DNA of 44,123 nt from a virus. Positions 29,021 through 44,123 of this stretch are shown in pieces. Numbering within the stretch: the stretch's first letter is position 1; the number at the start of each line of letters is the position of its first letter. Under the pieces are notes generated by a model. The model did no database searches, was not told the origin of the DNA, and saw only the letters and a program-made list of their open reading frames with translations. The stretch is from positions 1 through 44,123 of the IMG/VR virus record IMGVR_UViG_3300000116_000043, one strand, 5' to 3'. The position numbers and the translations under genes were made by a program.

Positions 29021-29280
29021 TATCCTGCCCTCACATTTCCAGATCCAGTAACGGGATGACCACACGAAGCAGCGTCACCAATTCGAATCACGGGCAGTCC
29101 GTTTGCTCTTACGGAGAACGATCCACCAATCAAAACAGGACCAGAGTGTTCGTTTCTACCGTGACCCGCAACCGGACCCATCAACAGTGCAACGGGAAAT
29201 CCATTGGCGCGAACATTGGTGGCACCACCAAGAATAGTTCCACCTGCTACGTCTATGAATGCTCTAGATATTCCCGGCAT
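29020..29280 (-). CDS. gp5.4: PAAR-type spike-tip protein (T4 gp5.4-like)
   Basis: An 86-aa protein starting MPGISRAFIDVAGG at ATG 29280. That start is preferred over the longer frame because it has a GGGAAG ribosome-binding site and the family normally starts this way. Two repeats of the form GG...NVRANGFPVA / GG..SFSVRANGLPVIR mark the PAAR fold. H40, H45, C73 and H75 are placed to form the zinc site at the sharpened tip. PAAR proteins cap the gp5 beta-helix spike and pierce the outer membrane. T4 also has this gene between gp5 and gp6. The start overlaps the end of the methyltransferase-like gene by 17 nt, and its stop is coupled to the next gene. Confidence 0.9.
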   Translation of the reverse strand: MPGISRAFIDVAGGTILGGATNVRANGFPVALLMGPVAGHGRNEHSGPVLIGGSFSVRANGLPVIRIGDAASCGHPVTGSGNVRAG

Positions 29281-29785
29281 GTTTATCTTCTTCCCAAAAT
29301 AGAATCTGCTCGCAATATTTAGCATACTTGTCGTCTATGATTTTGAAATATTCTTCGTGTGTACACTCACCAATCCAAGAGTCGAACCACCCAACATCCC
29401 AAGTCGAATCTGGTTCCCAGTCGTAAATATCTGCACGGACCAATCTAAACTTTTCATTCTTCGGACAGTGATCCCACACTAGATCAATGACCTCTTGGTT
29501 TTTTTCTACTATGGTAACACTGGTCACATCTTCATTGTCTATTAAAAACTGATGGACCATTCCAATTCCCAAACCTGCAAGCAAAACATCACCTTTTGCA
29601 TTTTCCCATAGGGGAGCATGTTCTCGGTATTCTTTTGTGGTGTCTTGCATGATTTCGTGGGTCGGGCAGAAAAGTATTGTATATTCGTCTTTTGGTTCGG
29701 GGTGGCCACACCAAGAATCAACTATTCGTTTTTCTATTCTAAATTCACCAGCAGTTCCCTCTGGTAAATTCACTTTGTACCTCAA
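29264..29785 (-). CDS. SAM-dependent methyltransferase / spermidine-synthase-like protein
   Basis: A 173-aa protein with a TTG start at 29785, overlapping the upstream stop as TTGA, with TAAGG about 9 nt upstream. The Rossmann-type signature is clear: VLLAGLGIGMVHQFL (glycine-rich motif I, about residues 67-81), VTIVEKNQEVIDLV with an acidic residue for the ribose, LVRADIYDW, and a final DVGWFDSWIGE. This arrangement is closest to the C-terminal catalytic domain of spermidine synthases and related methyltransferases, but the protein is short for a full aminopropyltransferase (usually near 280 aa). Its place among fibre genes could mean modification of a fibre or host surface, or simply cargo. 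The substrate is unknown; SAM or decarboxylated SAM binding is inferred from the motifs. Confidence 0.7.
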   Translation of the reverse strand: MRYKVNLPEGTAGEFRIEKRIVDSWCGHPEPKDEYTILFCPTHEIMQDTTKEYREHAPLWENAKGDVLLAGLGIGMVHQFLIDNEDVTSVTIVEKNQEVIDLVWDHCPKNEKFRLVRADIYDWEPDSTWDVGWFDSWIGECTHEEYFKIIDDKYAKYCEQILFWEEDKHAGNI

Positions 29786-41020: not shown

Positions 41021-41726
41021 AGACCCAACGAGAACAAAATACGAACTGACTATTCTTCATCAAGAATCTGTCAACGCATATGCAAATTATGTTCGTAAAA
41101 AAGACGAGATATCACAAAGAGAAAAGAACGCTCTTCTCAGTGGATTAGTTGATCTAAAAGAAGAAGAGGAAGAGGTTGAACAAACCGAAAAGGTTTTTGC
41201 TACTGCTGCTTCACTTTGGACTGAATCTCTCATACGAGGGCTGGAAAGACCCAGACCGGAATCGGGTGGGATTGAGTTTCAACGAAGAGACCAAGTGAAG
41301 TCTGTTGGTTCGATGTATTTGTTTTCTTACAACCCAGTGACGAAACAAAAACTAAATTACTACGACACCTTTCCTATGGTTCTGGTCACTGGAGTCACGG
41401 CTACTAAATTTGCTGGAGTTAATTTACACATGGTGCCGCCGAGGCAGAGAATGATGCTGATGGCAAAAATTTTGAAGAATTATAATCCAGCAATCAAAGA
41501 ATCTTTCAAAGGTATTGATTTTGGATATCTAAATAGTAAAGAGGGTTCTAGAATCGTCAAACCCTGCTACCGATCGTACTTCGATCAACGAATCAGTTCG
41601 ATTAATATCATGAGTATTGGACCAGAAGACTGGGTAACCGCATCGAGGATGCCACTAGAAAGATTCAGAAAACTCTCCAGAGAATCTGTATGGGGAGACA
41701 TAAGAAGAAAGCAGGATAATGTCTAA
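41007..41726 (+). CDS. Conserved structural-module protein of unknown function
   Basis: A 239-aa protein starting MGTIEDPTRTKYELTILHQE at ATG 41007, after GAGGAGG. A longer frame starting at 40950 lies entirely within gp4 and is not supported. The N-terminal 70 residues are helical and highly charged (KKDEISQREKNALLSGLVDLKEEEEEVEQ), probably a coiled coil. The remainder is globular, with QVKSVGSMYLFSYNPVTKQK, YYDTFPMVLVTG, VNLHMVPPRQRMMLMAK and, near the end, KPCYRSYFDQRISSINIM, ending in a basic helix (KLSRESVWGDIRRKQ). It lies between gp4 and the tube-initiator-like gene, so a tail or neck assembly role is likely. I recognise the pattern from T4-like marine phages but cannot give it a T4 number. 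Confidence 0.65.
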   Translation: MGTIEDPTRTKYELTILHQESVNAYANYVRKKDEISQREKNALLSGLVDLKEEEEEVEQTEKVFATAASLWTESLIRGLERPRPESGGIEFQRRDQVKSVGSMYLFSYNPVTKQKLNYYDTFPMVLVTGVTATKFAGVNLHMVPPRQRMMLMAKILKNYNPAIKESFKGIDFGYLNSKEGSRIVKPCYRSYFDQRISSINIMSIGPEDWVTASRMPLERFRKLSRESVWGDIRRKQDNV

Positions 41727-42393
41727 CTCAAGAGAAAACGCAATCGGACGGTACAACATACGAAGAACTTCCGCTGTCGATGTGCGTGATGTGCTTCCGA
41801 CCTCTGGAACTGTACAGGAACAGGGTGGACGGAGAGAGGATCTGCAAACAGCAGTTGAAGAGTTCGTAAACATACCCGGAACTTTTCATGGAGTGTATAC
41901 CCCAAACGCATTTCATGTAAGATTTGAGCGTTTCGGTGGCGGTGGTGCAGTGTTTGAGAGAAAACTAGACTTTTTTGCACAATCCGTGAACATTCCCGGA
42001 AAAAACATAGAAAGTACACCACTAAAAATTTACGGACCAGAGAGAGAAATCCCAACTGGTGTAAGTTACTCCGGTGATGTTAGTCTCCGTTGTCTTTTGT
42101 CGCAGGATTTCTTTGTTTACAGGTGGTTTATGAACTGGATGAACGAAATCGTCGGCGAAACCACTTCAAACGTAAATTACTACGATCTTTACGCAACAAG
42201 AATGCTGATAACTCCCGTGGTTTCGACAGGGGACGGTGAAACCGACGCCGCACCGATAGTTTTTGTCGTGGAAGACGTTTGGCCGAAAACAATGTCGCAA
42301 ATTGATCTAAATCAAGCAACCAAAAGCAACGCCGCAGAATTTACCCTCGCTTTGTCATTCAGAAAATGGCATTATATTACATCAAGAAGATAA
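41719..42393 (+). CDS. gp54: Tail-tube initiator-like protein (gp54/gp19 fold)
   Basis: A 224-aa protein whose ATG overlaps the upstream gene by 8 nt and has AGGA just before it. It contains FHVRFERFGG then FFAQSVNIPGKNIESTPLKI, YGPEREIPTGVSYSGDVSL, FVYRWFMNWMNEI and a terminal FTLALSFRKWHYI. This is the tail-tube fold: N-terminal beta-sandwich, long loop with IPG, and tube-stacking helices, as in gp19 and its paralogues gp54 and gp48. The extra ~60 residues over gp19 (163 aa) and the position beside gp26/gp51 and the tape-measure gene favour gp54, the tube initiator on the baseplate, rather than the main tube protein. No sheath gene is adjacent. Confidence 0.7.
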   Translation: MSNSRENAIGRYNIRRTSAVDVRDVLPTSGTVQEQGGRREDLQTAVEEFVNIPGTFHGVYTPNAFHVRFERFGGGGAVFERKLDFFAQSVNIPGKNIESTPLKIYGPEREIPTGVSYSGDVSLRCLLSQDFFVYRWFMNWMNEIVGETTSNVNYYDLYATRMLITPVVSTGDGETDAAPIVFVVEDVWPKTMSQIDLNQATKSNAAEFTLALSFRKWHYITSRR

Positions 42394-42414: not shown

Positions 42415-43116
42415 ATGGGTTTACCTAAAATTGAATTACCGTTAAGTAGAGTTAAATTGCCCAGTGGGAAGTCTATTCAGATAAGACCGTTCACTGTAAA
42501 AGAAGAAAAACTCCTCCTGTTGATTAATCAGGACAACAATTCGGTAAAAGACATCAATGATATCATCCGACAAGTGATTAATAACTGCACAGAAGGAAAA
42601 GTTGACTCTTACAAGTTACCAATGTTCGATATGGAGTATTTGTTCACTGAATTAAGGAAGGTCAGTGTTGGAGAAACCATAGATTACATCTATACATGCC
42701 CATCCTGTTCAATGAAATTCGAAACATCGGTAGATTTGAACAACATCAAGGTAGAAAACATCAAAAAATCGACGGACATCAAATTAGACGACGAAATTTC
42801 GTTCAAAATGCGATATCCGTCACAACAGGATGAAAATAAAACCGCAGGAATGGGTGTTGAAGAAAGAGTGATGGAATATGCCAACGATTGCATCGAGAAA
42901 ATTTTCGTGGGAGAAGAATCACACGACACAAAGGATTTGTCCAAAGAAGAAGTTCAAGAATTTATTGATTCCCTCCCCGGAAAAGCAATATCTAAACTTA
43001 TAGAGTTCTTTTTGGACCTACCAATGTGCAAAATCGAAGAGTCGGTGGTTTGTCCGAAGTGCAAAGAGAAAGGTTCGATCAAACTGGAGGGTATGGCAAA
43101 TTTTTTCGTAGCATGA
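42415..43116 (+). CDS. gp26: Baseplate hub assembly protein gp26
   Basis: A 233-aa protein with AAAGG before ATG 42415. The N-terminus (MGLPKIELPLSRVKLPSGKS, then IQIRPFTVKEEKLLLLINQD) and FDMEYLFTELRKVSVGE match the gp26 family of T4-like phages (208 aa in T4). Two CxxC pairs (C95/C98 in TCPSC and C213/C216 in VCPKC) frame the C-terminal half and form a likely zinc ribbon. T4 gp26 and gp51 act together in forming the hub around the tape-measure protein. The gene ends with a slippery run followed by a stem-loop, so a fraction of ribosomes may shift -1 and read on into gp51 (see separate entry). The stop overlaps the gp51 ATG as ATGA. Confidence 0.88.
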   Translation: MGLPKIELPLSRVKLPSGKSIQIRPFTVKEEKLLLLINQDNNSVKDINDIIRQVINNCTEGKVDSYKLPMFDMEYLFTELRKVSVGETIDYIYTCPSCSMKFETSVDLNNIKVENIKKSTDIKLDDEISFKMRYPSQQDENKTAGMGVEERVMEYANDCIEKIFVGEESHDTKDLSKEEVQEFIDSLPGKAISKLIEFFLDLPMCKIEESVVCPKCKEKGSIKLEGMANFFVA

Positions 43117-43134
43117 TGTCATATAACGACATCA
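43098..43134 (+). promoter_or_regulatory. Predicted -1 ribosomal frameshift site, gp26 to gp51
   Basis: In the gp26 frame the message reads GCA AAT TTT TTC. This contains two overlapping X-XXY-YYZ heptamers, A AAT TTT (43098-43104) and T TTT TTC (43101-43107). Six to nine nt downstream, TGATGTC (43114-43120) pairs perfectly with GACATCA (43128-43134) around a 7-nt loop. The -1 frame from the slip site is open into gp51, giving a fusion of 230 gp26 residues plus 59 residues (289 aa). Slip site, spacer and stem are at textbook distances. Normal termination gives the 233-aa gp26. Confidence 0.7.
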
Positions 43135-43283
43135 ATAACTACTATACACTGAATTTCAACTTGATGAAACACCATAATTTTTCATTGACTGAAATTGAAA
43201 ACATGATTCCATACGAAAGAGAAATATACGTTAGTTTGCTCATCAAACACTTAAGAGAAAAAGAAGAGAAGAATGGCAACTGA
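43113..43283 (+). CDS. gp51: Baseplate hub assembly catalyst gp51 (short form)
   Basis: A 56-aa product starting MMSYNDINNYYTLNFNLM (ATG 43113 or 43116), in the -1 frame relative to gp26. It contains HHNFSLTEIENMIPYEREIY, a short helical core typical of the small gp51-type proteins in marine T4-like phages, and ends in a Lys/Glu-rich tail. T4 gp51 is longer (249 aa) and is needed for hub formation, not retained in the virion. The start overlaps the gp26 stop (ATGA) and there is no separate ribosome-binding site, so it is made by coupling or as the C-terminal part of a frameshift fusion. Its stop overlaps the next gene by 11 nt. Confidence 0.75.
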   Translation: MMSYNDINNYYTLNFNLMKHHNFSLTEIENMIPYEREIYVSLLIKHLREKEEKNGN

Positions 43284-44123
43284 TAAAGAACAAGCAGAAG
43301 TTTTAAAGAAAATGCTACAGACGCAAGAGAAAACAAACTCTCTTTTGCTTGGTATTGCTGGTATAAGTGTATTGGGTCGAGCAAAAAAGGCAATTACCAA
43401 TCGTGGTTCGGATCGTGGTTCGGAATCTACACCCGGTGCATTTAATCTCAGAGATAGAACTCTACTACCGTCATTCTCTGATGCAGGTAGAACGCAAGCA
43501 TTCACCGAAAAACTCAAAGAACAAAGAGAACAGATGCCGATATCAGCATCTACTCGCGGAATTGGTAATATATTCAAGAGAGATATCGGTACTCTAATGC
43601 CAGCAGTCGGGGAATCCTTTGCTGGTAGAAAAAGAGGTTTACTTGGTGCCGCTGGGTTTGGAGCAAAACTTCCACTTGACCTCGCACTCAAAGGGTTCCA
43701 GAAACTTTCAGGTCGTCGTGAACGAGATGGAGAAGAATCAGAGCTCACAACTCCTGCTGATTCAGTGGTTCCTAACGGTGACCAAGAGGTCGCAGATGAC
43801 GTAGAAGTCACGCAACAACAAGCCACACAACAGACTATTCATCTAGAAAAACTAGAAGAGTATAATTTACGATCGGCACTCGCACTTGAAGAGATGCTCA
43901 AGCATCTTCAGACTCAAGCAGAAGAAGCAAAAAATGCTGCGAACCTAGCAAAAGTTGAAGCTTCAGAACGCGATAGAATGTTACAAGAGGTGGCGGAGTC
44001 TGTGGGTGGAGCTGCAACTGCTGCTTCTGCTTCCGGTGGTGGTGGTGGTGGTGAAGGGGGCGGAGTTGATGTTGATGTTGACACTGGCGGTCTCGTCGCC
44101 GGAGTCGCTGGTGGGTTGGGCAC
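43273..44123 (+). CDS. gp29: N-terminal part of probable tape-measure/hub protein gp29
   Basis: A partial gene open to the right edge; 283 codons are visible. ATG 43273 lies 8 nt before the gp51 stop, with GAAGAGAAG as a purine-rich ribosome-binding site. The product starts MATDKEQAEVLKKMLQTQEK and has a hydrophobic GIAGISVLGRAKKA, a basic central part with GFGAKLPLDLALKG, then Asp/Glu-rich and Gln-rich stretches. Next comes a coiled-coil segment (HLEKLEEYNLRSALALEEML) and a Gly-rich linker near residue 257 before VDVDVDTGGLVAGVAGG. Large helical, Ala/Gln-rich proteins encoded right after a frameshifting chaperone pair are usually tape-measure proteins. In T4 that role is gp29. The assignment rests on position and composition. 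Confidence 0.6.
   Translation, partial: MATDKEQAEVLKKMLQTQEKTNSLLLGIAGISVLGRAKKAITNRGSDRGSESTPGAFNLRDRTLLPSFSDAGRTQAFTEKLKEQREQMPISASTRGIGNIFKRDIGTLMPAVGESFAGRKRGLLGAAGFGAKLPLDLALKGFQKLSGRRERDGEESELTTPADSVVPNGDQEVADDVEVTQQQATQQTIHLEKLEEYNLRSALALEEMLKHLQTQAEEAKNAANLAKVEASERDRMLQEVAESVGGAATAASASGGGGGGEGGGVDVDVDTGGLVAGVAGGLG

Follow-up and report, generated by a model that had tools for sequence, protein, structure and literature searches.

Frameshifting of the G-T type was described in a 2016 review as widely conserved 'except T4' (PMC5009743), and the T4 proteins gp26 and gp51 are classed among the hub assembly chaperones; gp51 is essential for assembly and absent from the particle (PMC3004832). 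According to later citations, Vladimirov, Gautam and Davidson (2022, Virology 566:9-15) had already determined which proteins of T4-like phages serve as tail assembly chaperones. Their study is cited in a passage of PMC10885494 for the arrangement of some T4-like phages, which have a short gene and a longer fusion gene rather than frameshifting, and is credited in a passage of PMC12846349 (2025) with poly-T -1 signals in the TAC-N genes of T4-like phages. According to these accounts, the core of the finding presented here has most likely been published already, and the statement in the preliminary description of our locus, that no description of it for T4-like phages was known, has to be withdrawn. 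What our analysis adds to the published chaperone identification is its breadth, an argument from start codons, and an anomaly in the Ackermannviridae.

The stretch of DNA analysed here (the window) comprises the 44,123 nucleotides of positions 1 to 44,123 of IMG/VR record IMGVR_UViG_3300000116_000043, from an uncultivated marine T4-like virus to which no isolate is more than 60% identical. Its gp26-like gene (Table 1) scores 196 bits against PF12322, the cut-off being 24.5 bits, and on direct reading its 3' end is, by codon, ATG GCA AAT TTT TTC GTA GCA TGA. The preliminary description had reported two overlapping heptamers in the gp26 frame, a spacer of 6-9 nt, a perfect 7-bp stem with a 7-nt loop, and a -1 frame that is open into gp51 and would give a 289-aa fusion, and all of these are present. 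The spacers to the stem are 9 nt from A AAT TTT and 6 nt from T TTT TTC, and the arms TGATGTC (43114-43120) and GACATCA (43128-43134) pair perfectly around the loop ATATAAC. The -1 open reading frame (43026-43283) contains no stop until 43283, which gives a predicted fusion of 231 + 58 = 289 aa. Likewise, the gp51 start does overlap the gp26 stop without a good ribosome-binding site: both ATGs of ATGATG (43113 and 43116) are in the gp51 frame, and the anti-SD pairing ahead of them is weak (-1.5 kcal/mol vs. -3.8 for gp26 and -2.9 for the next gene). Searched as a protein, the -1 frame hits phrog_634, annotated as 'baseplate hub assembly catalyst', and the C-terminal part of phrog_150; as the 282 columns of phrog_150 span both gp26 and the extension, this family already points to natural fusions.

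Table 1. Features of the gp26 junction and its surroundings, in window coordinates
Feature	Position	Strand	Basis or remark
Tail tube-like gene, upstream	41719..42393	+	phrog_45, 8.2e-25
gp26-like gene, PF12322; short form of 233 aa when unshifted	42415..43116	+	Pfam T4_baseplate, 7.6e-58; phrog_150, 7e-61
SD-like GGAGGG, possible dnaX-type stimulator	43086..43091	+	9 nt upstream of heptamer
Secondary heptamer A AAT TTT, overlapping T TTT TTC	43098..43104	+	gp26 register
Conserved slippery heptamer T TTT TTC	43101..43107	+	gp26 register
-1 extension ('gp51'), predicted C-terminal domain of long form; 58 codons (43107-43280) and stop	43107..43283	+	phrog_634, 1.8e-26
Predicted hairpin, 7-bp stem and 7-nt loop, overlapping gp26 stop	43114..43134	+	
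Probable tape measure gene, cut by window end	43273..44123	+	position, length, central hydrophobic stretch

We interpret this junction, with a probability of roughly 0.92, as a programmed -1 ribosomal frameshift giving a short and a long tail assembly chaperone. Most ribosomes would terminate at 43114 and release gp26 of 233 aa, while a minority, at a rate that we infer to be low, would slip on T TTT TTC and produce the 289-aa protein, i.e., gp26 through its FF dipeptide followed by the 58-aa C-terminal domain. Both forms may act as transient tail assembly chaperones, covering the tape measure and bringing in tail tube subunits. T4-type phages have the equivalent pair as separate paralogs, gene 26 for the short and gene 51 for the long form.

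The evidence that carries this interpretation is the conservation of the slippery site. All 80 IMG/VR loci have T TTT TTC or T TTT TTT in the gp26 register a short way ahead of the stop, and the -1 frame is open in each of them. When these loci were combined with 12 named phages, which span Kyanoviridae, Schizotequatrovirus, Menderavirus, rhizobial phages and the Agrobacterium jumbo phage Atu_ph07, and filtered to less than 70% mutual identity, an in-frame T TTT TTY was found in each of the resulting 48 gp26 genes, as well as in 16 of 16 genes at less than 45% identity. The residue before FF varies (Asp, Ser, Asn, Thr, His), and its codon (GAT, AGT, AAT, ACT, TCT or CAT) always ends in T; the first Phe is always encoded by TTT. 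Judged by the codon usage of the same genes, chance would produce these synonymous choices with a naive probability of about 10^-22 for the 48 genes with shared descent ignored, and about 10^-9 for the 16 genes below 45% identity, and only 3 of 47 other FF dipeptides in the same genes are slippery. The gp26 stop lies exactly one codon past the heptamer in 40 of the 48 genes. A -1 frameshift at the end of gp26, as proposed in the preliminary description, is on these comparisons very likely, being strongly supported by the presence of the site in 48 of 48 diverged genes together with a conserved open -1 extension. The overlapping A AAT TTT is not conserved and occurs only in those relatives that have an A-AAT codon before FF. 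In two loci (L028 and L062), the heptamer lies 24 nt rather than 3 nt before the gp26 stop, which gives gp26 a short extra tail; the -1 extension of both is still in the usual register.

The comparison with T4-type phages concerns both predicted products. T4 and MK327933 carry gene 26 on one strand and gene 51 on the other. Both MK327933 proteins match full-length PF12322 (4.5e-60 for gp26 and 9.7e-60 for gp51) and are paralogs (BLASTP 5e-11). The C-terminal extension of T4-type gp51 matches phrog_634 (1e-23), and a profile built from the marine -1 extensions matches the C-terminus of T4-type gp51 from the Phe of the slip codon onward. T4 gp51, with its PF12322 domain and aligned extension, therefore corresponds, in a single reading frame, to the predicted frameshift product, and T4 gp26 to the predicted short one. 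The pairing of gp26 and gp51 as chaperones made in the preliminary description thus fits the T4 paralogs and the published identification, except that the marine gp51 is not the counterpart of the whole of T4 gp51. The FF codons of T4 are TTC TTT after GAG, with no slippery site. In a copy-number survey of 24 genomes, the two arrangements were mutually exclusive: each of the 13 slippery-site genomes (12 isolates and one IMG/VR contig) has one PF12322 copy, and the seven T4-type genomes have two. A quick, unrooted tree groups T4-type gp26 and gp51 together with a support of 90, which is compatible with one duplication; the frameshift arrangement may be the ancestral one. The comparison shows why T4 stands as an exception: T4-type phages have split the pair into two genes, and the predicted frameshift is kept by most of the other gp26-bearing phages sampled. 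The gp26/gp51 pair offers a testable natural experiment on duplication replacing recoding. A further product, gene 26' with an internal start, is annotated within T4 gene 26 (L083, 5803-6090).

The start codons available at the junction bear on the alternative that gp51 is a separate small protein translated by coupling at ATGATG, the heptamer being incidental. When the region from the upstream -1 stop (at most 45 nt back) to 33 nt past the heptamer was scanned, 14 of 43 genes, including that of the window phage, had an ATG near the junction; of the 29 without ATG, 9 had only GTG or TTG and 20 had none of the three. In the window phage itself, where the in-frame ATGs overlap the gp26 stop, separate translation of gp51 by such coupling is possible, and the ATG-bearing relatives, together with the TAATG at the junction of some Ackermannviridae, are in line with it. 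As a general explanation we nevertheless regard coupling as unlikely, considering the relatives that have no ATG or no start codon at all, the frequent position of the first ATG in the middle of the domain, and the mostly missing SD before ATG where it occurs. Moreover, the conserved -1 residues begin directly after FF, upstream of any start, and match T4 gp51, and coupling leaves the invariant heptamer unexplained. Since the -1 frame is conserved from the slip codon, often without a start, 'gp51' in such genomes is not an independent gene; the marine 'gp51' corresponds to the extension only and in most of the relatives does not stand as a gene of its own. Because a start codon is often lacking at the junction, annotators have begun gp51 at internal codons, as in P-HM2 (L089, 3121-3213), where it is annotated as 30 aa from an internal ATG, or have not called it, as in S-MbCM100 (L081, 3709-3888). 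Annotations mostly list the marine 'gp51' wrongly as a short gene of its own or overlook it; the entry should instead describe it as an extension of gp26 reached by frameshifting.

Slippage could also occur in transcription, with the T-run giving rise to heterogeneous mRNA instead of to ribosomal frameshifting. Runs of 6-7 T can promote polymerase slippage, and the site is 6-7 T long; in 27 of 43 relatives, however, the run consists of only six T followed by C, which is short for a polymerase, and the in-frame register together with the T-ending preceding codon fits tandem tRNA slippage. While transcriptional and ribosomal slippage are inseparable by sequence alone, we consider the transcriptional variant very improbable. 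A chance heptamer or an assembly error between two ordinary overlapping genes has a next to negligible probability. In-frame X XXY YYZ heptamers do occur by themselves (72 among the 14,167 codons of the main open reading frames of the window), but only the two overlapping ones of gp26 lead into a -1 frame that stays open for 50 codons or longer; an identical record (L001) exists, and the recurrence of the same site in all 48 diverged gp26 genes refutes both.

Two RNA elements might stimulate the proposed slippage. In E. coli dnaX, an SD-like element precedes the heptamer by about 10 nt and a hairpin follows it. Work on SD elements of the dnaX type is among that cited in PMC10885494, as far as the passage concerned goes. 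In the window, the region 43108-43170, which includes the hairpin, folds at -12 kcal/mol (z = -3.0 vs. dinucleotide shuffles), and in the relatives the RNA that follows the heptamer shows more structure than control stretches of gp26 (mean z of -1.43 vs. -0.10). When the 50 nt behind the heptamer were compared in 42 relatives by ungapped RNAalifold, no consensus hairpin resulted. An alignment of junctions from related phages had been proposed in the preliminary description, which sought heptamer, stem and open -1 frame in them; the heptamer and the open frame proved to be conserved, but no common stem emerged. As a predicted structure, the hairpin is real in the window phage and lineage-specific, and it may have a role in the shift. 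The GGAGGG upstream of the heptamer had been missed in that description. Most of the relatives have an SD-like element (GGAGGG/GAAGG) 10-17 nt upstream of the heptamer, a spacing similar to that in dnaX, with a mean duplex energy of -5.8 vs. -1.8 kcal/mol for the background (43 relatives, p = 3e-20) and of -9.8 kcal/mol in the window. The element coincides with a conserved Glu/Arg-Gly dipeptide, a confounding factor, and it is not specific evidence of frameshifting, because T4 gp26, which has no slippery site, carries the same signal; we therefore dropped it as such, although it may act as a stimulator.

The surroundings of the junction suggest the function of its products. Upstream lie tail tube-like, DNA end protector-like and head closure-like genes. 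The preliminary description had placed the cassette ahead of the tape-measure gene, and this is probable on account of position, length and the central hydrophobic stretch. The identity of the downstream product, 637 aa in L001, is unsupported by sequence: it matched no family, neither BLAST nor phmmer related it to T4 gp29, and tape-measure PHROGs gave weak matches for the downstream genes of relatives and none for that of the window. Together with what is listed for T4 gp26 and gp51, the presence of a short and a long form, encoded ahead of a long gene whose product is hydrophobic in the middle, fits a chaperone pair similar to lambda gpG/gpGT. AlphaFold (AF2) confidently modelled the window gp26 with a mean pLDDT of 87 and T4-type gp51, taken as a stand-in for the frameshift fusion, with a pLDDT of 90. 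Among solved structures, the chaperone proteins had no sequence match and no significant fold match, the tail assembly chaperone HK97 gp14 (2ob9) appearing in the fold search at a non-significant E = 1.9 and probability of 0.35, and the fold search of the long form against the PDB gave no match. Elsewhere in the window, a methyltransferase-like open reading frame (29264-29785; phrog_15480, 8.1e-19) lies within the tail fibre region.

Phages of the Ackermannviridae (records L084, L091-L093 and L111-L128) have the same layout, with one PF12322 copy and a conserved -1 extension, and no X XXY YYZ site at the gp26 junction. Their junction (ATTTTCATTTAA) has the form ATT TTC AT(T/C) TAA, which is invariant in every member seen, and a wider search for genes of this type added little new diversity. 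The -1 frame past the junction has ATG in limestone-type phages, and ATT or ATA in kutterviruses and phiEa2809. The extension in the Ackermannviridae would be reached by a non-canonical shift or else translated from an unusual start codon. Vibrio phage D504 (L088) also shares the layout with one PF12322 copy and has no X XXY YYZ heptamer; its junction reads CTT TTC AAG TAATGG, and its extension could start at the overlapping ATG. It is conceivable, if doubtful, that the T4 superfamily expresses one chaperone family in three modes: a canonical frameshift at T TTT TTY, its replacement by gene duplication as in the T4 type, and a non-canonical -1 shift at the Ackermannviridae junction.

Among the known systems, dnaX resembles the window in having an SD-like element upstream and a hairpin downstream of its heptamer, although this heptamer is A AAA AAG and the SD-like element of the window may merely reflect the conserved Glu/Arg-Gly. 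Lambda gpG/gpGT is alike in that a single gene, immediately ahead of the one for the tape measure, yields an abundant short and a rare long form (PMC5009743), and unlike in that it has no detectable sequence relation to the window proteins and its heptamer differs from T TTT TTC. The TAC-N/TAC-NC pairs of Vandenendeviridae and Andersonviridae, such as those of phage Adele, share a poly-T -1 site and an open -1 frame conserved within the family, and the TAC-NC extension of Adele is annotated as a separate hypothetical gene, like the marine gp51; their motif is, however, given as GTTTTT (PMC12846349). In the case of T4, gp26 shares PF12322 with gp26 of the window and gp51 adds a homologous C-terminal extension, but T4 has two genes on opposite strands and no slippery site, where the window has one gene with such a site. 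The chaperones of Vladimirov et al. (2022) are, to judge from the citing papers, the same proteins as those of the window.
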